64,000 nucleotides of DNA from Bradyrhizobium sp. CCBAU 53421 (GTDB taxonomy: Bacteria > Pseudomonadota > Alphaproteobacteria > Rhizobiales > Xanthobacteraceae): contig NZ_CP030047.1 in NCBI RefSeq assembly GCF_015291625.1, forward strand, positions 4,216,001 through 4,280,000. Reading direction: 5' to 3'. Below the pieces are notes generated by a model, which saw only the letters and a program-made list of their open reading frames with translations, did not search any database and was not told the origin of the DNA. Below are positions 51,221 through 62,956 of the stretch, one piece after another. The translations under genes were made by a program, and so were the position numbers. Position 1 is the first letter of the stretch; each line of letters opens with the position of its first letter.

Positions 51221-53110
51221 TCAGGCATTCTCGGCGTCGCGAATAACCTCGAACGGCAAGGGGGGGACGTTGTATTCGGCGATGTTCAGCTTCCAGATGT
51301 GGTGGTCGTCCGTGCCGCCGGCCGACGCAAATCCAAGCCTCTTGTACAGGTCGCGCACCAATCCGTTCTTGGCGGTGGGGAGGTAGCTGCCCTCCAGCGT
51401 ATCGACACCGTTCAAGCGGCAATGGCGGACGAGCTCGGCAACGATGGCTTCCTCGACCCGTCGGCCGAGGACCCGGCAGCTCATCAACCAGGTGTCGATG
51501 TCGTAAGCCGTGTCCTTCTTTCGCGCAATGACGACGCCGATAACTCCGTTGTCGCCAAAGCGGTCGCGAAGCCTGATCTGGAAAGTCAGGCAATCCGGCG
51601 AACGCGACATCGTCTCGACTTCGGAATGCGTGTAGCGACGCGTCGTCAGGTTGAATTGATTGGTCTTGTTGATGAGCTGTGCGATCCGCCCGAGATTGAC
51701 GGCATCGAACGCGTGGAATTCGATCGTCATGCCGAGCGACGCCAGAAATTCATCCATGTCGCGAGACTTGGCCGACAGCTCCGCGCGCTGGGCATTCGCC
51801 TGATATTGGGCGCCGCGCTGACGATCCTCCTCGGAGAACGTGACGGCTTCGAAATAGCCCGCGTTCAACAGCGTGCGCGCGTAAAGCGAAGGATCGGCGG
51901 GAAGTTCGGGCACGGCCACCATCGGCAACGCCTTTCGCACCTGACTTCGCTCGGCGGGATTGTCGTCGAGCAGCACCAGGGAATCCAGACCAATATTCAG
52001 CGTCTTGGCGATCGCCTCGATGTTGGTCGCCTTGTCGCTCCAGTTGGCCTGAAAGACGGCAATGTGGTCCAGCTTCAGCAACATCTCGGGGTGTTCCAGG
52101 AAGGGCTGTCGCGCGACCTCATCCGTGTTCTTCGAGGACACCGCCAGGATCACACCGCGATCGCGCAGCTGAAGCGCCGTTCGCTGGATTTCGGAGAAGG
52201 CTTCTCCTACCCCATCGCCCTGTCCGAGAACGATGCCTTCCAGTCCATCGTCGCCGATCGTGCCGCCCCAGACCGTGTTATCGAGGTCGAGCACGAGGCA
52301 TTTGCGGGCGTTGCCGCGGATCGCGCCAAGGAGGCGTCCAACATACTCAACGTAGATCGGTACCATCGTTTGCGCGAACGGCAACTTGTAGAGATTCCAT
52401 TGGACGGGATTGTGCCAGTTCTGGGTTCCGATCGATTCCGCCAGGGCGGCGACATCGAGTATGTAGTCACCCCGCTTCGCGGCGAGCTCGCGAAGCCCGT
52501 CGTTGAAGTCCTGAATCTGGCGGCGCATCGACATGGACACTTGCGCGTCCATGCTTCCGAACAGCGGTTGCGGAGGGCAGGCAACGGTCTGAAAAATCAC
52601 CGGCACGCCGGCGCCGCGCTCGAGACCCTCACGTATCATGCCCAAATAGTCGAGGGCGGACTGGTCCGACGGGGCGTTGCCGCCGCTGTTGAGGGGAAAT
52701 CCGTGGAAATCCAGCGCCAGCAGAACGGCGTCGGGCTTGGAGGAATTGATCGCGGAGGATGGGTCGAGCGCTTCCTGCACAACCTGATCGTAATCAGCCT
52801 GAGTCACGCGCAGCAAGACGCCGTGGCGCGCGGCGCCTGCGGCGAGGGCAGGGGCGAACAGGCAGGTCGTACCATTGCCCAGCAATCCAAGATGAAACTC
52901 GCGAAGCGGCGAGAGCGCCTTCTTCTTGGTTCGCGCGCGCTCTATGCTCTTCGAAAGGCGGGTGAGCTGATCGGTGTTGAGGCACTTGGCGGCGAGCGCG
53001 ACGATATCGGCGCCGCTCGGATCGTCGGAGGCGTCAAGCGCGCTGCATAGCGACTTGAAGTCCGCCGGCGGCGTCTCTAACCAAGGCAGTTCTTGAAGCT
53101 GAAACGTCAT
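51221..53110 (-). CDS. FkbH-like HAD-IIIC / GNAT protein
   Basis: This 629-aa protein has an N-terminal SGNH-like domain (about 70-260), a HAD domain with CLVLDLDNTVWGGTIGDDG (nucleophile D275, D277) and VSSKN near 325, then LLDDNPAER. A C-terminal GNAT-like domain (about 470-610) has DTWLMSCRVLGRRVEEAIV. FkbH-type enzymes load a glyceryl unit from 1,3-bisphosphoglycerate onto an acyl carrier protein and remove the phosphate. The ACP at 53557 is two genes upstream in the same operon. It is last of seven minus-strand genes. Whether the product is glyceryl-ACP is inferred. Confidence 0.85.
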   Translation of the reverse strand: MTFQLQELPWLETPPADFKSLCSALDASDDPSGADIVALAAKCLNTDQLTRLSKSIERARTKKKALSPLREFHLGLLGNGTTCLFAPALAAGAARHGVLLRVTQADYDQVVQEALDPSSAINSSKPDAVLLALDFHGFPLNSGGNAPSDQSALDYLGMIREGLERGAGVPVIFQTVACPPQPLFGSMDAQVSMSMRRQIQDFNDGLRELAAKRGDYILDVAALAESIGTQNWHNPVQWNLYKLPFAQTMVPIYVEYVGRLLGAIRGNARKCLVLDLDNTVWGGTIGDDGLEGIVLGQGDGVGEAFSEIQRTALQLRDRGVILAVSSKNTDEVARQPFLEHPEMLLKLDHIAVFQANWSDKATNIEAIAKTLNIGLDSLVLLDDNPAERSQVRKALPMVAVPELPADPSLYARTLLNAGYFEAVTFSEEDRQRGAQYQANAQRAELSAKSRDMDEFLASLGMTIEFHAFDAVNLGRIAQLINKTNQFNLTTRRYTHSEVETMSRSPDCLTFQIRLRDRFGDNGVIGVVIARKKDTAYDIDTWLMSCRVLGRRVEEAIVAELVRHCRLNGVDTLEGSYLPTAKNGLVRDLYKRLGFASAGGTDDHHIWKLNIAEYNVPPLPFEVIRDAENA

Positions 53111-53131
53111 GGCGTCGACCCCGGGATGGTG

Positions 53132-53560
53132 TCATTGATCTAGCAGTTTGGATCCGGCGGTGCCGCTCGCGATCAACTTCTCACCCGCGTAAACCCGAAA
53201 CTTCAGGCTGACGGTATGGGTGGAATGCGACACGTGCGTTAGCTCGCCGTTGAAAGTCGCTTCCTCGTCAATGTACAGCGGCTGATTGAAGTCGATCCGC
53301 CAGCTCGTGGCTAGCCCGAGGTCACCCGGCAAGTGCATTCCGACCAGATGCGAAAGTCTAGCGACCGTGAGCGCGCCGTACACCACGGGGCCCGAGAATC
53401 CGCGGCTCCGCGCGAATTCGGAATCGATATGAATGCGGCTCGAATCTCCCGACAGCTCTCGGAAGGTATCCATCTCGCTCTGACCGATCCGGAACGGAAT
53501 CGAGACGGTCATGCCTTCCTTAAGCTCGTTCCATGCCAGCACTCGTGGCTTTTCGCTCAA
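53132..53560 (-). CDS. MaoC-like hot-dog fold protein
   Basis: This 142-aa protein has the MaoC order: KEGMTVSIPFRIGQSEMDTFRELSGD-type start, SRIHIDSEFARSRGFSGPVVYG (catalytic-like D-x-NP/H region, here IHIDSEFA), then GLATSWRIDFNQPLYIDEEAT. Relatives hydrate enoyl-CoA or enoyl-ACP. The start is uncertain: TTG 53560 overlaps the ACP stop (TTGA), with GTG or ATG 53512 as alternatives; the family N-terminus requires a start before LAWNELKEG. Its place between ACP and FkbH suggests action on an ACP-bound acyl unit. Confidence 0.8.
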   Translation of the reverse strand: MSEKPRVLAWNELKEGMTVSIPFRIGQSEMDTFRELSGDSSRIHIDSEFARSRGFSGPVVYGALTVARLSHLVGMHLPGDLGLATSWRIDFNQPLYIDEEATFNGELTHVSHSTHTVSLKFRVYAGEKLIASGTAGSKLLDQ

Positions 53561-53802
53561 CGCGCAGCTCGCTGACGAATGACGTTGACGAACTCTCCGA
53601 CGTTCTTCAGGGCGGCAACTTCGCCAGTCGAGAACTGGATCTTGAACTCCACCTCGACAGCGACGACCAGCCGGATATTGCTGAGGCTGTCCCACGCCGG
53701 CACTTCTGCCGCGGTCATTTCCGGATGGGGCGTTAGCGTGTCGTCGTCGAAGACGTCCCGGAAAATCGGCGTGAGGCGGGAATAAATTTCCTCGTCAGTC
53801 AT
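53557..53802 (-). CDS. Acyl carrier protein
   Basis: This 81-aa acidic protein has four expected helices and the phosphopantetheine site WDSLSNIRL, with S39. It is DltC/ACP-like and should carry the acyl unit as a thioester in the cytoplasm. ATG 53802 is chosen over 53853 because the family begins a few residues before EEIYSRLTPIF. It ends 1-4 bases into the MaoC gene. A separate carrier within this operon points to a dedicated acyl pathway. Confidence 0.88.
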   Translation of the reverse strand: MTDEEIYSRLTPIFRDVFDDDTLTPHPEMTAAEVPAWDSLSNIRLVVAVEVEFKIQFSTGEVAALKNVGEFVNVIRQRAAR

Positions 53803-53922
53803 CACTATCGTCCCATGATTTGGGTGAGTCGGCGGCGGCGTCGAAATTGCCAAGCAAGCCCCGAAAAATCCGCCTTTTCGGCGCGAGAACTAGCAGATGG
53901 CACCGGCATTCACAAGGCTCCT

Positions 53923-55041
53923 TCACCGCCTGCCCAGCATGGCGTCCAGGCGCGGGCCAAGTTCCGCGCTCAGTTGGGCGTAACCGGCCTTGTCGAGATG
54001 GACGTGATCGAGGAATTCGGACGCCGGAAGGGTGGCGAGCGGCCCAACGTAAACTCGGTCCGGAGGCTGTGGTGAGATGATTTGCACGAGTTGAGCCTGC
54101 AGCTCGGCAAACTTCTGCTGCGGAAGCAGGTCGGGCAATACCTTGGGGTTCTCGGTCGCGTAGAAGATCAGCGTGGGCTGCTTTGCCTCCGAGACGCGGC
54201 GCAGGATCCGATCCAGGGCTTGTCGCTGCGGGTTATCGGGAGCCAGATCGATCTTCTCGTACCGCGCGCGTGCGCGCATCAGGAGCACGACATCGCCAAG
54301 GTCGTCGCCGGTTGCGCCAGTCGAGCGTTGCAGCCGCTTGTCCGCTGCATCGCGCAGGCCCGCCAGGAAGTTGAAGGGACTGCCGTCGAACCACAGCGCC
54401 TGGAGAAAGTCGCGGGACCGGTACAGAAACCACCAGTTGACGAGGGCGTCGTGGCTCCATCCCGCAATTCCGCCAGCGCCCTTGCCGGTGGAATAGGTAC
54501 CGTTGGAATCCACCGACAGAGTGTCCAACCAGAGACGGGTCCTGGTTTCGCCTTCACGATCGAAATCCCGGGAGAAAGACCGCAGGCTCAGATCGAACAC
54601 GATGGCATCCGGCTTCGAGGGCAGCACGATGCGCACAAGGTTCTCAAGATCGGTCGGAAGCGTTCCGTTCATGCCGAAGTTGGCGACGAGCACCTTTTGA
54701 CCGGGATGCTTCTCGGCAAGCCAATTCTGCAACTGGCGCGACAAGGTGTGCGCCTGCCAGGCGGTATCGCCTTTGTCCCGCATGGCCCGGCCGAAGATCA
54801 GGGAGTCGCCCAGAACGGCAACCTTCACTCCGTCGAACTTCCGAAACTCCTCGAGCTTGGCATAAAGAGCTGCCGGCGACTGGACGTCGATCGTTGTCTG
54901 AAAGATGCCGCTGGCCGGGGCGGCCATTCGCAAGACCACATCCAGGCAGGCCAGTATCGCGATCAGCGCGGCAACCGTCACGCCCAAACGCGAGAGGACG
55001 TCGCTGCCTCGGTATCCCTTTGTTTTTGGAGCCTCAACCAT
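53923..55041 (-). CDS. Membrane-anchored SGNH protein (DltD/AlgX-like position)
   Basis: This 372-aa protein has one N-terminal helix (about 18-40) and a periplasmic SGNH-type domain. Block I is VAVLGDSLIFG (S80), block III NFGMNG (N125), and the C-terminal FLDHVHLDKAGY carries the Asp and His. Such proteins transfer or remove acyl groups on envelope polymers. It lies 7 bases after the 37-aa gene and follows the MBOAT gene, as dltD follows dltB/dltX. It is named by position and fold, not by close similarity to DltD. Confidence 0.78.
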   Translation of the reverse strand: MVEAPKTKGYRGSDVLSRLGVTVAALIAILACLDVVLRMAAPASGIFQTTIDVQSPAALYAKLEEFRKFDGVKVAVLGDSLIFGRAMRDKGDTAWQAHTLSRQLQNWLAEKHPGQKVLVANFGMNGTLPTDLENLVRIVLPSKPDAIVFDLSLRSFSRDFDREGETRTRLWLDTLSVDSNGTYSTGKGAGGIAGWSHDALVNWWFLYRSRDFLQALWFDGSPFNFLAGLRDAADKRLQRSTGATGDDLGDVVLLMRARARYEKIDLAPDNPQRQALDRILRRVSEAKQPTLIFYATENPKVLPDLLPQQKFAELQAQLVQIISPQPPDRVYVGPLATLPASEFLDHVHLDKAGYAQLSAELGPRLDAMLGRR

Positions 55042-55047
55042 CAGCGT

Positions 55048-55161
55048 TCAGAAATTCTGGTAAACGAACAGCGCCTGGCCGGTGTTCGACAGCAGCACGA
55101 TGATGGCGATCTTCGCGGCCAGCCACACGATCTTGAGAATGTCGTCGCGTCCCAATGTCAT
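55048..55161 (-). CDS. 37-aa DltX-like membrane microprotein ending FVYQNF
   Basis: ATG 55161 overlaps the MBOAT stop (ATGA), so it is co-translated. The peptide has a polar start (TLGRDDILK), one helix (about residues 11-25, IVWLAAKIAIIVLLS) and the end TGQALFVYQNF. DltX peptides of Gram-positive dlt operons are also single helices that end in an FxYxxF motif (FIYNEF type), whose tyrosine takes part in acyl transfer between DltB and DltD. Here the same motif ends a peptide between an MBOAT and an SGNH gene. The match is by motif and position only. Confidence 0.72.
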   Translation of the reverse strand: MTLGRDDILKIVWLAAKIAIIVLLSNTGQALFVYQNF

Positions 55162-56375
55162 GGATACAGCCCCAGCATCTTGCCGTAGATCGCGCCCCAT
55201 TCCGAGTAGGATTTGAGCCAAAGGATCAGCGTTGTCGAGACGAATGCGTAAACGAGAAAGCGGCGGAGATAGATCGAAGCCCCGGTGGCGACCGGCCCCT
55301 TCTTGACGCCGACATATTTGCGGACGAGCTGGCTCGCAACCAGGGCTCCGCCGTGAACCGTGCCGAACGCCAGAAAGCCCCACGTCACCCCATGCCAAAG
55401 CGCGATCAGGATCATCGAGAGGAAGTACACCGCCGATATCATGGCAAACTGAATACTGCGCGGCGCCTTCTTGATGACAATGAAGTTGAGCGGCGTGAAG
55501 ACGTAGTCCCTGACCAGCGTGCTGAGCGAGATATGCCACCGATTCCAGAATTCCTGGATCGTCGTTGAATCGAACGGCCGATTGAAGTTTTCAATCAGCC
55601 GGAAGCCCATCAGCGAGGCTGTGCCGATCACGATGTCGCAATAGCCGCTGAAATCGAGATAGATGAGGCCAAGCTGAGCGAGGGCCCCGACCCACAGCAT
55701 CGGCCCCGACATTTGCGCGGCATTGTCGAACGAGAAGATTCCGAACGCCGAGAGATTGTCGGCGAGGACGAACTTCTTGATCATCCCGTTGGCGATGCGA
55801 TGAAGGGCAGGGATGACTGCCTTGGAATCGAAGGTCGGAGATGCCAGCTGCTGCTCGAAGCTCCGATAGCGCTCGATCGGGCCGGCCAGCAACGCGGGGA
55901 AGAACAGGACGTAGGTGCAGAACCGAAGGAAGCTCGGCCTTTCGATGAATTCCACCTCCATCAGGTAGCTCACGCAACGGAACACCATGTAGGAGATGCC
56001 GATGATGTGGACCGGCATGTAGTGGAACGGGTTGGCCCCTCCCAGCAGTCGAGGGTCTCGCGCCAGAAACAGAAAGATCCAGAGCAGCGCCACGACGAGG
56101 AGCTGCGCTTCCATGGTGAAGCGCGCGCCGCGCTGCTTGCGAAACAGGCCGATCCCGTATGAGGCGGCAAGGAAGCCGGCCAGCACGATGATCGACGCCG
56201 GATCGAATCCGAAGCTGATGAAGAATGCGAAGCTCAGGAGCAGCAGGGCGACATTGCGCGCCATCTGCAGATTGACGGCGCAGCAGATAATGATGGCGGC
56301 CGCCGAGATATACAGAAACTCGAAGCTGTTCAGGGAAGGCCCGCCTACGACGGCGGCCGCAGATTGGAAAAGCAT
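55158..56375 (-). CDS. MBOAT O-acyltransferase (DltB/AlgI/PatA-like)
   Basis: This 405-aa inner-membrane protein has about eleven hydrophobic segments and the MBOAT hallmarks: GPIERY near 165-170, YLDFSGYCD near 239-247, EFWNRWHISLS near 275-285, and the catalytic histidine H328 in ALWHG. Such enzymes carry acyl groups across the membrane to extracytoplasmic targets. AAGGG precedes the ATG at 56375. With the downstream carrier protein and FkbH, it should accept an acyl group from ACP. Confidence 0.92.
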   Translation of the reverse strand: MLFQSAAAVVGGPSLNSFEFLYISAAAIIICCAVNLQMARNVALLLLSFAFFISFGFDPASIIVLAGFLAASYGIGLFRKQRGARFTMEAQLLVVALLWIFLFLARDPRLLGGANPFHYMPVHIIGISYMVFRCVSYLMEVEFIERPSFLRFCTYVLFFPALLAGPIERYRSFEQQLASPTFDSKAVIPALHRIANGMIKKFVLADNLSAFGIFSFDNAAQMSGPMLWVGALAQLGLIYLDFSGYCDIVIGTASLMGFRLIENFNRPFDSTTIQEFWNRWHISLSTLVRDYVFTPLNFIVIKKAPRSIQFAMISAVYFLSMILIALWHGVTWGFLAFGTVHGGALVASQLVRKYVGVKKGPVATGASIYLRRFLVYAFVSTTLILWLKSYSEWGAIYGKMLGLYP

Positions 56376-56402
56376 GGCATCCCTTCTCGACGCAACGAGT
56401 CC

Positions 56403-57419
56403 CTAAACGGGCCGCCGTCCGACAGCCACGCAATTGATCGTCAGGCGGTCTTTCAGGCAGCGCTCCAGGCGATACCCCGTCATCGGGAATAGTTCGTTCT
56501 TCTCGATCTCGAAACCCGCCGATGTCATGAGGTCGATCATCTCCGACGGCTTGTCGATCAGGTAGAGGTGATCGGGAGCAGGGCTGTTGGCGGGCATATT
56601 GACCAGGATCCTTCCGCCGGGCTTCAGATAGCGGATCAGGGACCGCAGGGCCTTGAGCGGGTCCTCGAGATGCTCGAGCAACTCGCTCACGACGATGCTG
56701 TCGAAGCTGTCGCGTTGATCGGGCGCGTCGAACATGTCCTGCCGGACCAGCTCGATCTCGTCACTGACGCCGATCACTTCCAGCGTGCGCCGCGTGGCCG
56801 CGATGGCGCCTTCGCTGACGTCCCACCCGACGATCGAGCCAGACCGAGGATCCGTTGCCGTCAGATAGAGCAGGGCGCCATGGCCGGGCCCTACCTCGAG
56901 ATGACGGTATCCTTCCGGGAGCATCGGCAGGTACTGGCTCCGGTAGAAGGTCAGCGCGCAGGCGTGGTTGTGCCAGAACACGCCCGACAGCAGCAGCCCG
57001 TTCATGTATTTTTCCATGACGTCGGGCTTCGAGTAGACGTCGCGAACGGCCTCGCTGAATTTGGAGCGCTCATAGCGTCCATGGCGCCGGAAGAACAACT
57101 CGGCTTCCAGGATCATGTTCTCGCAGAAGTACCGGTAGTCGTGGCAAATCTTGTCGATGGTCCCGAAGTGATGGAGCGCGATCTTGGTGACGAGCTGCGA
57201 CGATGCCTCGGTGTCGCGCATGACCTCCAGCGACCTGTTGCCGAGGCTGGTCGCCAAGGTGGCCTCGTGCTGGGGCCACGCGGCAATCTGTCGCTCGACC
57301 AGTGCTGAAAGATAGGGGTACGCAGCAATATCGATCTCTGCGATCCTCGACCGCCGCACGATGTCCGTGGAACCAGTCACCTGACCACCCTTTGGTTGAA
57401 AATATCGCCCTTCTGACAT
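56403..57419 (-). CDS. Class I SAM-dependent methyltransferase
   Basis: This 338-aa protein has an N-terminal helical region (about 20-150) and a Rossmann methyltransferase domain: YRHLEVGPGHGALLYL (motif I near 180), GWDVSEGAIAAT, and VSELLEHLEDPLKAL and GGRILVNMP later. The E/D-x-G-x-G-x-G form is present (EVGPGHG). The target is unknown; it may methylate the acyl unit or a sugar. ATG 57419 (MSEGRYF) is chosen; 57473 is possible but less usual. It is the first gene of the acylation operon. Confidence 0.82.
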   Translation of the reverse strand: MSEGRYFQPKGGQVTGSTDIVRRSRIAEIDIAAYPYLSALVERQIAAWPQHEATLATSLGNRSLEVMRDTEASSQLVTKIALHHFGTIDKICHDYRYFCENMILEAELFFRRHGRYERSKFSEAVRDVYSKPDVMEKYMNGLLLSGVFWHNHACALTFYRSQYLPMLPEGYRHLEVGPGHGALLYLTATDPRSGSIVGWDVSEGAIAATRRTLEVIGVSDEIELVRQDMFDAPDQRDSFDSIVVSELLEHLEDPLKALRSLIRYLKPGGRILVNMPANSPAPDHLYLIDKPSEMIDLMTSAGFEIEKNELFPMTGYRLERCLKDRLTINCVAVGRRPV

Positions 57420-57577
57420 AGCCGGGCTTATCCGTGCAAGCCCTTGAACGGCGATAATTGTTCTCGACAACAAGGCCGGAGGGCGTCCCGGTGAGGCAGG
57501 GCGGAGGCGTCAGCCAATTGATAGCTTGACGGAGCCAAAAAGCTCGGCCAGATAGCCGCAAAGTCAAGGGCCGGAAC

Positions 57578-58018
57578 ATGAAAAGCCGCTTCCCTAGCGC
57601 ATTTGGTCTGCTACGCCAGGCCGTCATCATGGGGACGTTCTTGTTGGCAGGAATTTCGTCTGCCTTCGCGGCCGCTCTGCCACTTGTGGTAGAGAAGGAA
57701 CATCGGGTCGCAGCAGCCAAGGACACCTACCTCATCCTCGTGCTGGACTTGAAACCTAACCTCGTCGACCTGCAGAAATCCGGCGCAGGGGCTCCGGATC
57801 TCATCAGGGCTACCGCTGCCCGCTACGCCAAAGACTATCTCGCGCAACCTGAGTTCAGCTCGAGCCCAAAAGTCGTGGTCTATTTGATCTCGGTCGAAAG
57901 CATGGATGAGTACAACCGCGCCAAGTTCGACGGCATGAAGCGGTATGGCACCATCGCTTTCGAGAAAAAGGGCGACGAGGTCGTGCTAACCGAAGACAAG
58001 CTCTCTTTTGGCCCATAA
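57578..58018 (+). CDS. Exported 146-aa protein of unknown function
   Basis: A signal peptide (basic start, hydrophobic 11-28, cleavage likely after SSAFA) is followed by a mature domain of about 115 residues. A strand-rich start (TYLILVLDLKP) and a helix IRATAARYAKDYL precede VVVYLISVESMDEYNRAKF. It is the first gene on the plus strand, divergent from the methyltransferase (158 bp between starts), so the two operons may share control. No family was recognised. Confidence 0.65.
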   Translation: MKSRFPSAFGLLRQAVIMGTFLLAGISSAFAAALPLVVEKEHRVAAAKDTYLILVLDLKPNLVDLQKSGAGAPDLIRATAARYAKDYLAQPEFSSSPKVVVYLISVESMDEYNRAKFDGMKRYGTIAFEKKGDEVVLTEDKLSFGP

Positions 58019-58055
58019 GGCTTCAGCCTTTTCCTGGTGACATCGCCTGCTCAAC

Positions 58056-60236
58056 ATGACGAGTTCGAAACTTAGAAGGACGGCTGCCGGTATCATCTTG
58101 GTCGTCGCGATTTGCGGCGGCATAGCGGCAACGGTCGAGAAAACGCGCCGATACATCAATCAGCGGATTGATCGGATGTTGGCTGAACGCAACCCGCCGA
58201 AGCCGGAGCTTCCTCCTCCTCCTCCGGCGCCATCGCCTGCTCCAGCGCCATCGGCCTTCGACAAGAAAGCGGAGATTGAGCTTCACCAATTGTCCGCGCG
58301 CGTCGCGACGCTGGAGTCGTTGCTGGCTGGCGCCGGAGGCACGCTGGTCGACCGTGTCCCGGACGCGAGTGAGTATCGCGGGCGGGGCGCACCGGTTGTT
58401 GCGATGCTCGATGCCGTGGGGCCCTATCGCAAGAACGGGCTCTTCGAGATCTATGGCGGAAGTTTCCGCGAAAGGCGCTCCGGCCCAATCAGCGTCACCG
58501 AAGCGGATTTCGAGATCACTCATGGACAGGCGTGGCTGATCTGGTCACCCGACTTCACGCCGGCGAGGGACGCCACCCATCTACAAATAAAGTTCGCGGC
58601 CCCTCCGACGACAGGCAAGCTGACAGTCGGATTTGTCCTCAATGACGGACAGTCGCTCGCCTGGACACTTGATCTGCCCGCCAAGAGCACGGAGCCCGCA
58701 GGTCTGCTTCCGCCGGTCCTCCCCGACGACATCGTCATGCGTGCCAACAACGCGCAGGTGGTCGGAGACATCAAGCTTGCCGGGAGCCAGGTGACCGTCC
58801 CGCTGCCTCCTAGCCTGCTCCTGAACCTGAGAAACGGTCAGGCGAAGGCAATCTCGCAATGGTTCGTGAAGGTCGACGGTGCGGCCGGAACGACAATGCG
58901 TTTCCAGACGCTCGCGCTCGTCCGGCCGGCGGCGCCGCCAACCAGCAACGGCGTCACGTTGGCGGGCAGGGTGGTCGGGGGCGCCATTGCGCCGAACACG
59001 TCGATCGAATTGCTGGAGGAATCCGGCAATGCGAAAAAGGGTGTGCTCGCGGCGGACGGTACCTTCGCCTTCACCGCGGTGGATCCGACGAAGCCGGTAT
59101 CCCTTCGTCTGAGACGCGAAGAGTTCGAGCATTCCACAACACTCGGTCGATGGTTTGTTCCGTCCTACGATCGCAACGATCTCGTCGTTGACGTGCGTCC
59201 GATCTACGTCAACGAGGATGGCCATGCCCCTGATTCAACCCGCGCGAAATTCATAGGCGCCCGCAAGCCGTCTCCGTATGCCGCGTTCTACGAACCGCAT
59301 AGCCGGCAATACTGGCCAGGCGCCGGCACGGTCCAGGAGTACGATTCGACCACATTCGTGAACAATCAGGGTTACGTCGATCGCGACCGGTTCTTCGACA
59401 ATCCCGACAACTGTGTCCGTCTTGCCAGTACGGGCGGCAGCGACATGGTTGCCCTTCAGGTCCGCCCCTTCGAAAAGGTCAATATCCTTCTCGAGGAAAG
59501 TCTCGGCGTAGCCTTGCATAGATGTGTCGAGGTTATCTCCGCTGCGACCGACAACGGCGACATCGGTACGAACTTTCCCAGAATTCGAGACTACAGCTCG
59601 AAATTCGGTGTTCAGGGGACTTTGGTCTCGATGCTTGCGGGACTTGTCTCCCAGGTCAGCCCAACAATGCTTCGCGACGGATTGGGATTCGATCCGGAGA
59701 ACAGCCCGCTTCCGAATTTCCTCCATGATACCAGCGGTGCATTGACGTTCCGCACCGCCTCACCGGTTTTTGCGGTGTTCACCGCCAAGGCGACGCTGCC
59801 GGAATATGTCAAAGGAATTCCGTTCGGCACGACGTTGACAGTGCCCTTTGATGTCATGCCGCAAGCCGGCAAGGAGGCATTCCGGTACTGGACTGAAATC
59901 GTCTCATATATCGAGAAGCACCATCCTGGTCAGAATTTCATATTCCATACCGGAGTTGATCAGGCACAATGCCGGAACAATTGTGAGATCACGCTGACCT
60001 TGGCCGACGGCACCAAGGTTGCCGCGGGCGCGAAGGGATTTGTCAGAAACGTAACCGAGTACTGCGCCAAGAACGGATACACCTGCGTGAACCCCAATTT
60101 CTCCGAAAAATACGGGGAAGTGCCGAGGTTGCTGACGTTTCAATACGACGGACATTACTCGAAACTTGGACATCAATGGCTTGCGCAGGAGCTGACGGCG
60201 CCATTGGCCAAAATCCTTTCCGATACGTCGAGATGA
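58056..60236 (+). CDS. Exported SGNH-like protein with a carboxypeptidase-regulatory-like domain
   Basis: This 726-aa protein has an N-terminal anchor (about 10-28), a Pro-rich linker and coiled coil (about 48-90). A beta domain (about 110-290) is followed by a CarboxypepD-reg-like domain (about 305-360, GVTLAGRVVGGAIAPNT). The C-terminal SGNH-like domain has block I TGGSDMVALQV near 458-468 and the end YDGHYSKLGHQWLAQEL near 697-712. That domain may act on an acylated polymer outside the cell. It follows 57578 by 37 bases and overlaps the next gene by 4. The family is otherwise unknown to me. Confidence 0.6.
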   Translation: MTSSKLRRTAAGIILVVAICGGIAATVEKTRRYINQRIDRMLAERNPPKPELPPPPPAPSPAPAPSAFDKKAEIELHQLSARVATLESLLAGAGGTLVDRVPDASEYRGRGAPVVAMLDAVGPYRKNGLFEIYGGSFRERRSGPISVTEADFEITHGQAWLIWSPDFTPARDATHLQIKFAAPPTTGKLTVGFVLNDGQSLAWTLDLPAKSTEPAGLLPPVLPDDIVMRANNAQVVGDIKLAGSQVTVPLPPSLLLNLRNGQAKAISQWFVKVDGAAGTTMRFQTLALVRPAAPPTSNGVTLAGRVVGGAIAPNTSIELLEESGNAKKGVLAADGTFAFTAVDPTKPVSLRLRREEFEHSTTLGRWFVPSYDRNDLVVDVRPIYVNEDGHAPDSTRAKFIGARKPSPYAAFYEPHSRQYWPGAGTVQEYDSTTFVNNQGYVDRDRFFDNPDNCVRLASTGGSDMVALQVRPFEKVNILLEESLGVALHRCVEVISAATDNGDIGTNFPRIRDYSSKFGVQGTLVSMLAGLVSQVSPTMLRDGLGFDPENSPLPNFLHDTSGALTFRTASPVFAVFTAKATLPEYVKGIPFGTTLTVPFDVMPQAGKEAFRYWTEIVSYIEKHHPGQNFIFHTGVDQAQCRNNCEITLTLADGTKVAAGAKGFVRNVTEYCAKNGYTCVNPNFSEKYGEVPRLLTFQYDGHYSKLGHQWLAQELTAPLAKILSDTSR

Positions 60237-62956
60237 AAAAGCCGGGCGCCTATCTGTTTGTTCTGCGCCTGTTCGTTGCGCTCGGGTGCTGTGCGCTCGG
60301 CCCGGCATCAGCCCTTGCTGATGGCGGGAAACCGGATACGCCGGTTCGCGTGTTGCCGTACCCGTTCTCACATATCGTCAGCTTTGCCGCAGATACCGAC
60401 GCGCTTCGTCCCTGGCACGGCGCTGCCATTCACCGCTTCTTCAATGAAGAGCTCGGTTTGACGATATCGGATTCGCTTTGGCCGCAAGGCAGTGAGGGAA
60501 TCTCGGCGTTTTTTGTCGGCCCGGGACAGTTGAATCGATCCCCTTCGGGCATCGGCTCAGAGTCCACTTTTGCCCTGCTTCTGCGAGAGTGGCATCGCGG
60601 AAACATCGATCACTTTCACAGCTGGCACGAGGACTCTCCGTTACCTTTTAGAACGGAGATCCAGCCGCCGCTTTCCCTGTCCGCGGCACGATCGAGCTTG
60701 AGTATGTCTTCTGTCGGTCTGCCTCCTCAGCCAAGCCGCAACGTGAGATTCTACTTCTCCGCGGCTCCGCCTGCCGACCTTTCGATCATGTTGCACGATA
60801 GCAAAGGCAGATCGAGCATTTTTGGTTCGGGAGGTATCACTCGCGGACAAGACATCCAGTTTGAAGTAGGGCCGCTCGGCTGGATCGTCGAGGTGATCGT
60901 CCCGCTGCAGTCCAACAGCGTGACGCGGCCTGTCGATCCGATGTCGATCGACCGGATTGAATTTATCGCACCTTCCTGCGCGACCGGGTGTGCCGCTTCC
61001 CTCACCAGAGTGGAGCGTGATCACTTCAGCCGGTACACGGTGCTGTCCGAAATCCCGTGGCTGGAAGCGTGGAACGTTCGCCCTGCAATTCTGACGTCCC
61101 ATGGCGGCAACACGCTCATTCAGGACTTCGGCGTTCCGGGACAGGTTGCGAAGTTTGTCGCGTTCGATAACCCCGCCCTCGTCGATACGCATGCCGCGCT
61201 TGCTGACCAGAAGCAGAGCCATGCCTACCATTCCGACCTCTTGAGGAATCTTGGTGTGATCGCGGTCTGGTCCTATTTTCCGGCCGATGCGAAGGATTTA
61301 TTTGCTCCTCCTGACGGGCCTGAAGTCCAGCGCGGGCTGCCACCGCTCTCATCGACCTACCAGCAGCTCTACAATTTACCTCGTGCGCTGCCGCCACCAC
61401 TCGACACCGGTAGCGAAGACAAGTTTGATGCGTCGGCGCGAGTCTCGCTCGCGGATATTCCCGAGGACGAGAGGAAGGAGCTCTATTGCGGACCGAGTTG
61501 CACCGTGTCCCAGGGCAACGCTCTCGCAATGCTGATTGCCTCTGACCTCCAGTCGATCAACCGCGGCAAGAAGGTGAAGACGCTAGTTTACACCCATTTC
61601 GGCTCCGAGGACGGGACTCCAAATTTTCGGGCCTCGCCGGAGGAGCCGGTGACGCAGGCTGTTCGGAAGTGGATGCGGCGGTTCGCCAACTACGTCTATG
61701 ACTTCGATGGCTCGATCGGTATTGGCCGGCGCATCTGGTCACCTCCGGCGAACACATGGGTTCGCTACCAGGTAATGCATTCCAACATCGCCTCTCACCT
61801 GGTCGTTGACGGGTCCGCGGTCTCGATCACGCCGTGGACGGATCCGGTCACGCAAACGACCTGGCCCGATCTGCGCGCCGGCACGCGCGACCTACACGGG
61901 CTCACAGTGTACGTTCCGGACGTCGAGCATGCCTCGGTTAGGATCGGCGGCAAGGAGACGCAATCATTTACCCGCAACCCGCCGGATGAAACCGGCAGGG
62001 CGTCGATCACGTTGGTCGACGATCAGGTGCCGACCCCGATCATCGGCCGGGTTTCCTTGAAGGACCGCGCACGCGTCGAGGCCATATCCGGTCAATATAC
62101 CGACCTATCGGAAGCCAATTCCCACGTCAGTCTTGCAGCCGATCAAGCCGACGGCGCAAGCGTCGTCATCAAGCCCTGGAGGCTCGACCTCTGGAACACG
62201 AGCCACCTGCAGCTTGCCGTGCGCAAGCGCTGTGCGAGCAAGGATAGCGCGGGCTGTCTTGAATCCCGTTTCAAGATCGAGCTGCTGATGCAGGACGGCG
62301 GCACGGTTTCCATTCTGGAAGATCAGGCGCCTGATCGGCGCGTGTCATCCAGCACCTGGTCCGTTCCGCGTTTGAAGAGGCTCGATGAGTGGGTATCGCA
62401 CACGCTCGATGTGACGCAGTTGTCCTGGTCCAAATTCATCGACCAGGGCGACGACTGGCGTCGGCCCGGCCTTCCGCTCGGAAGGGTCAAGGAGGTGAGG
62501 GTGTCGCTGACGAACGCGCCCGCCGGCACGACGCTCGATGTGCAAAATTTCAGGGCTTTGCGGCCCTCCGGAAACGGTCAGGCACCGGATGGCACCAAGT
62601 TGATCGCGGGCCGCGTCACCCTGGACGGTTGGATTCCCGCGCCCGGAGTGGAAGTTCGAGCGGCGACAGAGCCCGGACACACCACCACTACCGCGACCGA
62701 TCAGGACGGGTATTATTTCTTCCCTGGTCAGCCGAATGGGAAAATCGTGAGCATCCGGGCTCAACTGGGCTCGCGGCAGTGCTTCCCAAGGCAGGGGCGC
62801 CGCATCGAGATCGGCAAGGATGAGGCTGAGCTCGACATTCAATTGGGGCAGAACCTGCAATTCTCGCGCGGATCGTCGCAGTTGCCATTCACGGCCGCCA
62901 CCGATCCCGAACAAGCTTGCGAAGCGACGCCGGAGCTTTTGGCGCAAGGTCGGTAA
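60233..62956 (+). CDS. Exported polysaccharide-deacetylase-like protein with C-terminal Ig-like domain
   Basis: This 907-aa protein has a signal peptide (about 1-29, ending ASALADG). A domain beginning SHIVSFAADTDALRPWHGAA and HRFFNEELGLTISDSLWPQG recalls deacetylase-type TIM barrels with a D-x-D site. A long beta-rich middle (about 180-740) and a CarboxypepD-reg-like domain near 790-850 (AGRVTLDGWIPAPGVEVRAA) follow. ATG 60233 overlaps the previous stop (ATGA), so both are co-translated. It probably works outside the cell on the polymer handled by the divergent acylation operon. Catalytic residues are not certain. Confidence 0.55.
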   Translation: MKKPGAYLFVLRLFVALGCCALGPASALADGGKPDTPVRVLPYPFSHIVSFAADTDALRPWHGAAIHRFFNEELGLTISDSLWPQGSEGISAFFVGPGQLNRSPSGIGSESTFALLLREWHRGNIDHFHSWHEDSPLPFRTEIQPPLSLSAARSSLSMSSVGLPPQPSRNVRFYFSAAPPADLSIMLHDSKGRSSIFGSGGITRGQDIQFEVGPLGWIVEVIVPLQSNSVTRPVDPMSIDRIEFIAPSCATGCAASLTRVERDHFSRYTVLSEIPWLEAWNVRPAILTSHGGNTLIQDFGVPGQVAKFVAFDNPALVDTHAALADQKQSHAYHSDLLRNLGVIAVWSYFPADAKDLFAPPDGPEVQRGLPPLSSTYQQLYNLPRALPPPLDTGSEDKFDASARVSLADIPEDERKELYCGPSCTVSQGNALAMLIASDLQSINRGKKVKTLVYTHFGSEDGTPNFRASPEEPVTQAVRKWMRRFANYVYDFDGSIGIGRRIWSPPANTWVRYQVMHSNIASHLVVDGSAVSITPWTDPVTQTTWPDLRAGTRDLHGLTVYVPDVEHASVRIGGKETQSFTRNPPDETGRASITLVDDQVPTPIIGRVSLKDRARVEAISGQYTDLSEANSHVSLAADQADGASVVIKPWRLDLWNTSHLQLAVRKRCASKDSAGCLESRFKIELLMQDGGTVSILEDQAPDRRVSSSTWSVPRLKRLDEWVSHTLDVTQLSWSKFIDQGDDWRRPGLPLGRVKEVRVSLTNAPAGTTLDVQNFRALRPSGNGQAPDGTKLIAGRVTLDGWIPAPGVEVRAATEPGHTTTTATDQDGYYFFPGQPNGKIVSIRAQLGSRQCFPRQGRRIEIGKDEAELDIQLGQNLQFSRGSSQLPFTAATDPEQACEATPELLAQGR

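Follow-up and report, generated by a model that had tools for sequence, protein, structure and literature searches.

The window analyzed here is a 64,000-nucleotide stretch of Bradyrhizobium sp. CCBAU 53421 (contig NZ_CP030047.1, positions 4,216,001 to 4,280,000). It harbors a run of seven minus-strand genes, reading from position 57380 to 51221, for a methyltransferase, a membrane-bound O-acyltransferase (MBOAT), a 37-amino-acid peptide, an SGNH protein, an acyl carrier protein (ACP), a MaoC-like protein and an FkbH-type enzyme. This operon probably encodes an extracytoplasmic acylation system, in which a Dlt-type tyrosine relay is charged by an FkbH donor module of the natural-product type and delivers its acyl group to an extracytoplasmic glycan. 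A Dlt-type logic is supported by the division of MBOATs into a short and a long type, by the restriction of structure matches to DltB and by FkbH, ACP and MaoC genes that accompany the acyltransferase genes as a set. Six core genes are conserved together in five lineages, with conserved catalytic residues and in at least two gene orders. The first is the lineage of the window, represented by MBOATs of 96-98% identity in Bradyrhizobium sp. NAS96.2, Bradyrhizobium sp. RD5-C2, B. viridifuturi and B. macuxiense. The other four share 64% (L019, Micavibrio sp. UBA6147), 55% (L012/L036, same class), 47% (L020, a metagenome-assembled genome of the Burkholderiales) and 45% (L006/L007, a second Bradyrhizobium lineage) of their MBOAT residues with it.

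The 37-amino-acid peptide (MTLGRDDILKIVWLAAKIAIIVLLSNTGQALFVYQNF; 55048..55161, minus strand, as are all genes of the operon) ends in FVYQNF, and its sequence conservation and third-position bias indicate that it is the product of a real gene, beyond chance. The MBOAT stop codon overlaps the ATG of the peptide (ATGA), and six bases lie between the peptide stop codon and the ATG of the SGNH gene. Pairwise comparison of the peptide gene with those of four Bradyrhizobium relatives gave 18 base differences from the window, 17 of them in third codon positions, and the sole residue change is K10R in L018; since these comparisons share ancestry they are not independent, and no significance was rested on the count. 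An earlier sequence-only reading had listed the same genes, with the methyltransferase in front, and had made its proposal of a DltX-like peptide depend on conservation of the small frame and of its C-terminal tyrosine. The minus-strand coordinates agree with that inventory, and frame, position and tyrosine are kept in all five lineages. The peptide directly follows the MBOAT gene in each of the five lineages in which this MBOAT type was found, and its ending is always F-x-Y-Q-N-F (FAYQNF in L006/L007, FVYQNF in L012/L036 and in L019, FLYQNF in L020). In the four further lineages it measures 36-40 amino acids; the L019 frame has 49 at its longest start and was aligned from a later ATG. Across six sequences from the five lineages, M1, K17, I21, N26, F32, Y34, Q35, N36 and F37 are invariant. 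A search for F-x-Y-x-x-F peptides beside MBOAT genes had been suggested along with the proposal. A scan of 5602 open reading frames (ORFs) of 28-75 amino acids from the window and from loci L006-L083 gave 19 with the strict ending, and all 19 are located at MBOAT loci. Duplicates are present among these loci, and ORFs exceeding 75 amino acids at their longest start, the window's own included, are not part of the count. One of the 19 (L072) lies about 1.2 kb from the MBOAT gene, past the SGNH gene, and another (L081) is an annotated dltX. Judged from sequence, the peptide has the architecture of DltX, one hydrophobic stretch followed by a C-terminal F-x-Y-x-x-F, and Tyr34 is proposed to act as the acyl shuttle.

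The MBOAT (405 amino acids; 55158..56375) is a short protein of the DltB type that matches the Pfam MBOAT family (PF03062; 5.6e-26, 92 bits, cutoff 27). DltB is the only kind of solved structure that it matched at E 0.01 (PDB 6bug/8jem, approximately 1e-33). Its residues His281 and His328, both invariant in the five lineages, align with His289 and His336 of DltB, which are named in PMC11035591 together with the key residue Tyr345. The C-terminus reads IYGKMLGLYP; the shuttle hexapeptide is not found there and sits on the separate peptide.

This arrangement was placed in context by a survey in which a hidden Markov model built from nine MBOATs was run against all ORFs of at least 300 amino acids in the loci, yielding 66 distinct proteins, of which those above 435 amino acids were called long. 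All 43 long MBOATs carry a shuttle motif at their own C-terminus, in 41 cases as a strict F-x-Y-x-x-F (the others being YVYFQF in L056 and IVYKVF in L066), and no separate motif peptide was located beside any of them in flanks of mostly 1-1.5 kb. Since loci existed for only 30 matches of the phylum sample, the long MBOATs are to be regarded as a sample. The 23 short MBOATs divide into 19 from Gram-negative and four from Gram-positive bacteria. A separate hydrophobic motif peptide accompanies 18 of the 19 Gram-negative proteins; 16 have the strict ending, and the peptides of L070 and L074 end in FIYWDN and LVYKNM. The remaining protein, L073, is a partial copy from a metagenome-assembled genome and is missing its N-terminal part. 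There is redundancy among the 18, as five belong to a single Bradyrhizobium lineage and two to a second one, and three are dlt loci of the same kind. No natural fusion of MBOAT and peptide occurred among the short proteins, and the short frames of L075-L077, which run off contig ends, were left unscored. In the Gram-positive dlt loci L081 and L082 the annotated dltX lies past the distance limit of the survey, and none was found in L079. A peptide flagged in L080 was rejected, as it overlaps an annotated bacteriocin gene on a Gram-positive plasmid; the fused motif flagged there also looks like chance. The L080 gene itself (L080:3674-4861) is a dltB beside a bactofencin-type bacteriocin on a plasmid of Ligilactobacillus murinus, with no other dlt gene annotated within the 8.8-kb stretch. 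Separate and fused motifs are thus complementary across MBOATs. On the tree the two states require two changes, compared with a mean of about 15 when the labels are shuffled. This offers a simple rule for annotation: beside a short MBOAT a separate shuttle peptide should be sought, and in a long MBOAT the last six residues should be read.

The SGNH acyltransferase (372 amino acids; 53923..55041) possesses an N-terminal hydrophobic helix and gave a weak match to the Pfam family GDSL (2.4e-4; 22.1 bits, below the gathering threshold of 32.9). Ser80, Asn125, Asp345 and His348 are invariant in all seven aligned sequences.

Homologues of FkbH, ACP and MaoC accompany the MBOAT, the peptide and the SGNH protein in all five lineages. 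The order MBOAT-peptide-SGNH-ACP-MaoC-FkbH is found in the window, L020 and L036; L006 shows the same order with KAS III-like and SDR genes inserted, and in L019 the genes for ACP, MaoC, FkbH and methyltransferase are located upstream instead. The window enzyme (629 amino acids; 51221..53110) is assigned to the FkbH-type HAD-IIIC acyl-loading enzymes by TIGR01686 (304.3 bits, cutoff 146.65), its motifs DLDNT (the DxDxT of HAD proteins) and TWLMSCRVL are conserved in six of six sequences, and PDB 3slr is a relative of solved structure. In B. viridifuturi SEMIA 690 (L017:12264-14152) two ORFs take the place of a single FkbH frame, as a result of decay or of a sequencing error. The ACP (81 amino acids; 53557..53802) carries its phosphopantetheine serine in a WDSL motif and scores 18.1 bits with the PP-binding model, just below the cutoff of 20.8. 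This serine is invariant in eight of eight aligned sequences, two of which (L083 and L088) are not of the FkbH type. The MaoC-like hotdog (de)hydratase (142 amino acids, TTG start; 53132..53560) matches PF01575 with 43.6 bits (cutoff 27). Its closest solved relative is a PhaJ-type hydratase (1iq6, 2.9e-13), with which the Asp/His dyad that we take to be catalytic is aligned, and the pattern SGD....H.D is present in all five sequences. The S-adenosylmethionine-dependent methyltransferase (325 amino acids, GTG start; 56403..57380; Pfam Methyltransf_23, 1.6e-16) has an alternative, longer frame starting at 57473, and approximately 150 N-terminal amino acids are conserved. It occurs in three of the five lineages, namely that of the window, L019 (76% identity) and L036 (62%, convergent gene); no homologue above 60 bits was detected in L006, L007 or L020. 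A distant second case is provided by L074/L091, where a peptide ending in LVYKNM, an MBOAT, FkbH and ACP are followed by a 363-amino-acid ORF in which SGNH-like motifs were recognized by eye.

In the proposed mechanism FkbH would take the place of DltA and load a C3 acid onto the ACP, presumably a glyceryl group from 1,3-bisphosphoglycerate, in keeping with the chemistry of other FkbH enzymes. While bound to the carrier, the acyl group may be modified by the MaoC-like enzyme and, in the window lineage, by the methyltransferase. The short MBOAT would then transfer it from the carrier to Tyr34, which lies near the outward-facing C-terminal end of the peptide. Ser80 of the SGNH protein, itself anchored in the membrane, would take it over from the peptide and deliver it to a hydroxyl group of an envelope polysaccharide or exopolysaccharide. 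The identity of the acyl group, the covalent tyrosine intermediate, the order of transfers and the acceptor are steps that we infer. In L020 the module adjoins a Polysacc_synt_3 (Wzx-type) protein and a UDP-GlcNAc 2-epimerase, neighbors that point to a surface polysaccharide as the acceptor. A more specific version of this scheme is possible, albeit tentative: the MBOAT with a separate shuttle may be a modular relay whose donor end was exchanged in the course of evolution, and in this branch FkbH, ACP and MaoC might produce a dehydrated C3 acyl group, so that the tyrosine would carry an ester of the pyruvyl or lactyl type to the surface. As we picture it, MaoC-type chemistry would remove water from glyceryl-ACP to give pyruvyl-ACP, which might be methylated in the window lineage or reduced by the SDR of L006 to lactyl-ACP, whose acyl group resembles D-alanine but is uncharged. 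No description of such an ester on a Dlt-type relay was found in the open-licence PMC literature searched.

Several observations weigh against the relay reading. According to family models the operon is not a dlt operon, as DltA, DltX and DltD find no match and the DltB and DltC models stay below their cutoffs. No DltA was found among the seven proteins with Pfam and NCBIfam, and elsewhere in the genome the DltA model TIGR01734 gave 66 matches, the best with 265 bits and none over the cutoff; the enterobacterial-type DltA of L067 itself scores 363 against the cutoff of 560, so a score below the cutoff fails to exclude a DltA elsewhere. The peptide matched no Pfam or NCBIfam model at E 0.1, the DltX family included, and hhalign joined its alignment with a five-sequence DltX alignment over the last eight columns only, at a probability of 4%. 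The SGNH protein likewise matched no NCBIfam model at E 0.1, DltD included, and a profile comparison by hhalign with a five-sequence DltD alignment found no relationship (probability 0.3%). Its structure, predicted from the alignment of seven sequences, is of low confidence (predicted local distance difference test, pLDDT, 57.9); the six top Foldseek matches of this model are all chains of DltD 3bma, with E values of 0.0099-0.036 and none at 0.001, which is a hint only. For the ACP, the DltC model NF003464 scores 17.1 bits (cutoff 68), and generic ACP models score higher, likewise below their cutoffs. The MBOAT reaches 185 bits with the DltB model TIGR04091, below the cutoff of 375, and has Phe337 at the position of DltB Tyr345. 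That cutoff is strict, since it was passed by none of 299 phylum genomes and the Gram-negative dlt operons among them fail it as well, at 195-202 bits. No glycosyltransferase was seen beside the window operon, which makes the acceptor a guess. The Dlt-type relay inferred by the sequence-only reading is supported in part: the short/long split, the DltB structures, the conserved tyrosine and the donor set speak for it, and the peptide and the SGNH protein are not recognized as DltX and DltD by sequence.

The distribution of carriers also counts against a simple scheme. Three of the long MBOATs with a fused motif (L014, L052 and L056) have ACP or DltC-like genes next to them, and no ACP was detected by BLAST with three carrier queries in the 7-8 kb around the short MBOATs with separate peptide of L069-L072. 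Carrier and separate peptide are thus not strictly tied, and the idea of an obligatory pairing of the two was rejected, as it fails in both directions. Since most loci with long MBOATs have only about 1-1.5 kb of flank, the number of carriers beside them is a lower bound. The carriers of L056/L088 and L014 are 59% and 39% identical to the window ACP, and that of L052 is 40% identical to the DltC of L083. FkbH was found neither near L056 nor near L014, nor in the wider stretches L088 and L089. From L088:1525-3444, L014 and L052 it appears that carrier-fed fused MBOATs may exist. The wider stretch of L014 (L089) also harbors a methyltransferase with 28% identity to that of the window. At L069:4187-6964 and L070:120-4091, short MBOATs with separate peptides are accompanied by AMP-forming ligases, likely donor enzymes that would represent further donor variants.

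The alternatives are partly compatible with one another, and the likelihoods attached to them need not add up to certainty. The acceptor could be a small molecule, either secreted or residing in the membrane, or a lipid, in which case the operon would belong to a natural-product pathway ending in an MBOAT/SGNH acyl transfer. FkbH, MaoC and the methyltransferase, together with the KAS III-like and SDR proteins of L006, are enzymes of the natural-product type, no glycosyltransferase adjoins the operon and the cluster is rare. However, the SGNH protein has an N-terminal hydrophobic helix like membrane-anchored DltD, and the L020 module is part of a polysaccharide locus; this acceptor seems rather unlikely. 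A purely structural or regulatory role of the peptide as an MBOAT subunit, with no acylation of its own, is improbable. A regulatory role of DltX and DltD on DltB is offered as an alternative in PMC11035591, but Tyr34 is invariant in six peptides, a like motif is fused to all 43 long MBOATs, and acetyl-tyrosine has been found on the fused motif of PatA according to PMC12148441. The latter source also describes MBOAT/SGNH pathways outside the Dlt group with an acyl-coenzyme A (acyl-CoA) donor, as an ordinary acetyl-CoA-fed O-acetylation would require, with the ACP and FkbH genes serving another pathway; this is likewise improbable, as FkbH, ACP and MaoC travel with the module in five lineages despite the differing gene orders. 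Hardly credible, finally, is a diverged D-alanylation operon supplied with DltA from elsewhere in the genome: the MBOAT scores about the same with TIGR04091 as those of Gram-negative dlt operons and sub-cutoff DltA matches are at hand, but FkbH stands in the place of DltA in five lineages, the ACP is of a generic type and not a DltC, and the MBOATs form a clade of their own, apart from the enterobacterial and Gram-positive Dlt proteins.

The latter separation was evident in a tree of 54 MBOATs, in which the six FkbH-type proteins form a clade (100/99) apart from all Dlt proteins. Gram-negative and Gram-positive Dlt MBOATs group together (98/93), at a point where, according to a warning of the program, long branches come together, and several short MBOATs have long branches and uncertain places. 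The module is rare and patchy. Matches at E <1e-100 were restricted to seven of 195 genomes of the genus, two of 385 in the class sample (the own genome and G332) and the own genome alone among 398 of the phylum sample. In the order, the own genome was the only one of 249 at 1e-60, with at most seven of up to 15 candidates scored per genome. Of the 21 loci returned from a species-level genome collection six are of this type, and loci near the window genome were possibly left out. On plasmids, none of 136 matching records covers 80% of the MBOAT. The operon and the window differ little in guanine plus cytosine content (0.606 and 0.621), so composition gives no sign of recent arrival. No Rfam matches were obtained, and the numbers of promoter-like sites (1, compared with 1.5 in shuffles) and terminator-like sites (10, compared with 6.6 in shuffles, standard deviation 2.7) are near chance.

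Upstream of the operon, three genes are oriented divergently on the plus strand, and no family above cutoff was detected for their products (with Pfam alone searched for the first). The first product, a conserved neighbor of 146 amino acids (57578..58018), had no Pfam match at E 0.001 and is 55% identical to an ORF beside the L006 module. A 726-amino-acid protein (58056..60236) with an N-terminal hydrophobic segment recognized by eye has counterparts in L006 (63%) and L036 (30%) and matched neither Pfam nor NCBIfam at E 0.001. It gave no BLAST hit above 60 bits with a 676-amino-acid neighbor in L019 (20% identity in a forced alignment), and its structure prediction was discarded at pLDDT 34. 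The third protein (926 amino acids; 60176..62956) shares 54% identity with its L006 counterpart and showed a weak similarity to CarboxypepD_reg (24.8 bits, cutoff 32.3). Both Bradyrhizobium lineages retain all three genes (57578-62956) next to the module; among the compared loci the 726-amino-acid protein is also present in L036, and the 926-amino-acid protein is confined to the two Bradyrhizobium lineages. It is possible that the three proteins work extracellularly on the acylated product.

With the dltXABCD operon of Gram-positive bacteria the window operon shares a short DltB-type MBOAT, a separate single-helix F-x-Y-x-x-F peptide, an anchored SGNH protein and a small carrier. It differs in lacking DltA, in having FkbH and MaoC, in a peptide and an SGNH protein that are missed by the family models and in its Gram-negative host. 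Furthermore, its peptide gene is located between those of MBOAT and SGNH, whereas that of dltXABCD precedes dltA. Gram-negative dlt loci (L083, L067 and L068) likewise have a separate peptide of 39-40 amino acids ending in FEYQ[KQ]F beside an MBOAT of 372-373 amino acids, but they retain DltA and DltC, and their MBOATs group with Gram-positive DltB and not with the window clade. In the dlt operon of a Klebsiella electrica plasmid, the DltX-like peptide of 40 amino acids (L083:3809-3931) is annotated as a hypothetical protein, which illustrates that shuttle peptides can go unnamed. According to PMC5541007, DltX had already been reported in Gram-negative dlt operons of soft-rot enterobacteria, with the same topology and without sequence similarity. 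A DltX in Gram-negative bacteria is thus not new in itself.

PatA/PatB, AlgI/AlgJ and Wss-type O-acetylation systems resemble the window operon in combining an MBOAT and an SGNH protein with a tyrosine shuttle motif, which in these systems is fused to a long MBOAT, whereas in the window it is carried by a separate peptide. PMC12148441 describes the relay chemistry for DltX and for the fused motif of PatA: the MBOAT loads the motif tyrosine from a thioester donor, and the SGNH serine passes the acyl group on to the polymer. The same text characterizes the other MBOAT/SGNH pathways as acyl-CoA-fed, without a carrier protein or a DltX-like microprotein; the window operon has both, and the microprotein also accompanies a larger group of short MBOATs from Gram-negative bacteria. 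In the open-licence PMC literature, covered mostly at the level of titles and abstracts, no description was found of an FkbH donor for a relay of MBOAT, SGNH and carrier; two papers on cyanobacterial peptides contain both FkbH and MBOAT. Since Gram-negative DltX was known and the combination with FkbH was not found, the exchange of the donor is the new part. If FkbH is indeed the donor, the tyrosine relay would be a general means of conveying acyl groups across the membrane, bound neither to D-alanine nor to acetate, and surface esters not yet known would become predictable from genomes.

The donor end has its closest parallel in secondary metabolism. In polyketide pathways such as that of FK520-type methoxymalonyl-ACP, FkbH loads glyceryl onto an ACP. 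An FkbH domain, a stand-alone ACP and a nearby methyltransferase are common to these pathways and the window operon. The difference lies in the destination of the FkbH product, which in FK520-type pathways is passed to a polyketide synthase, whereas in the window operon it appears to be passed to a membrane O-acyltransferase.

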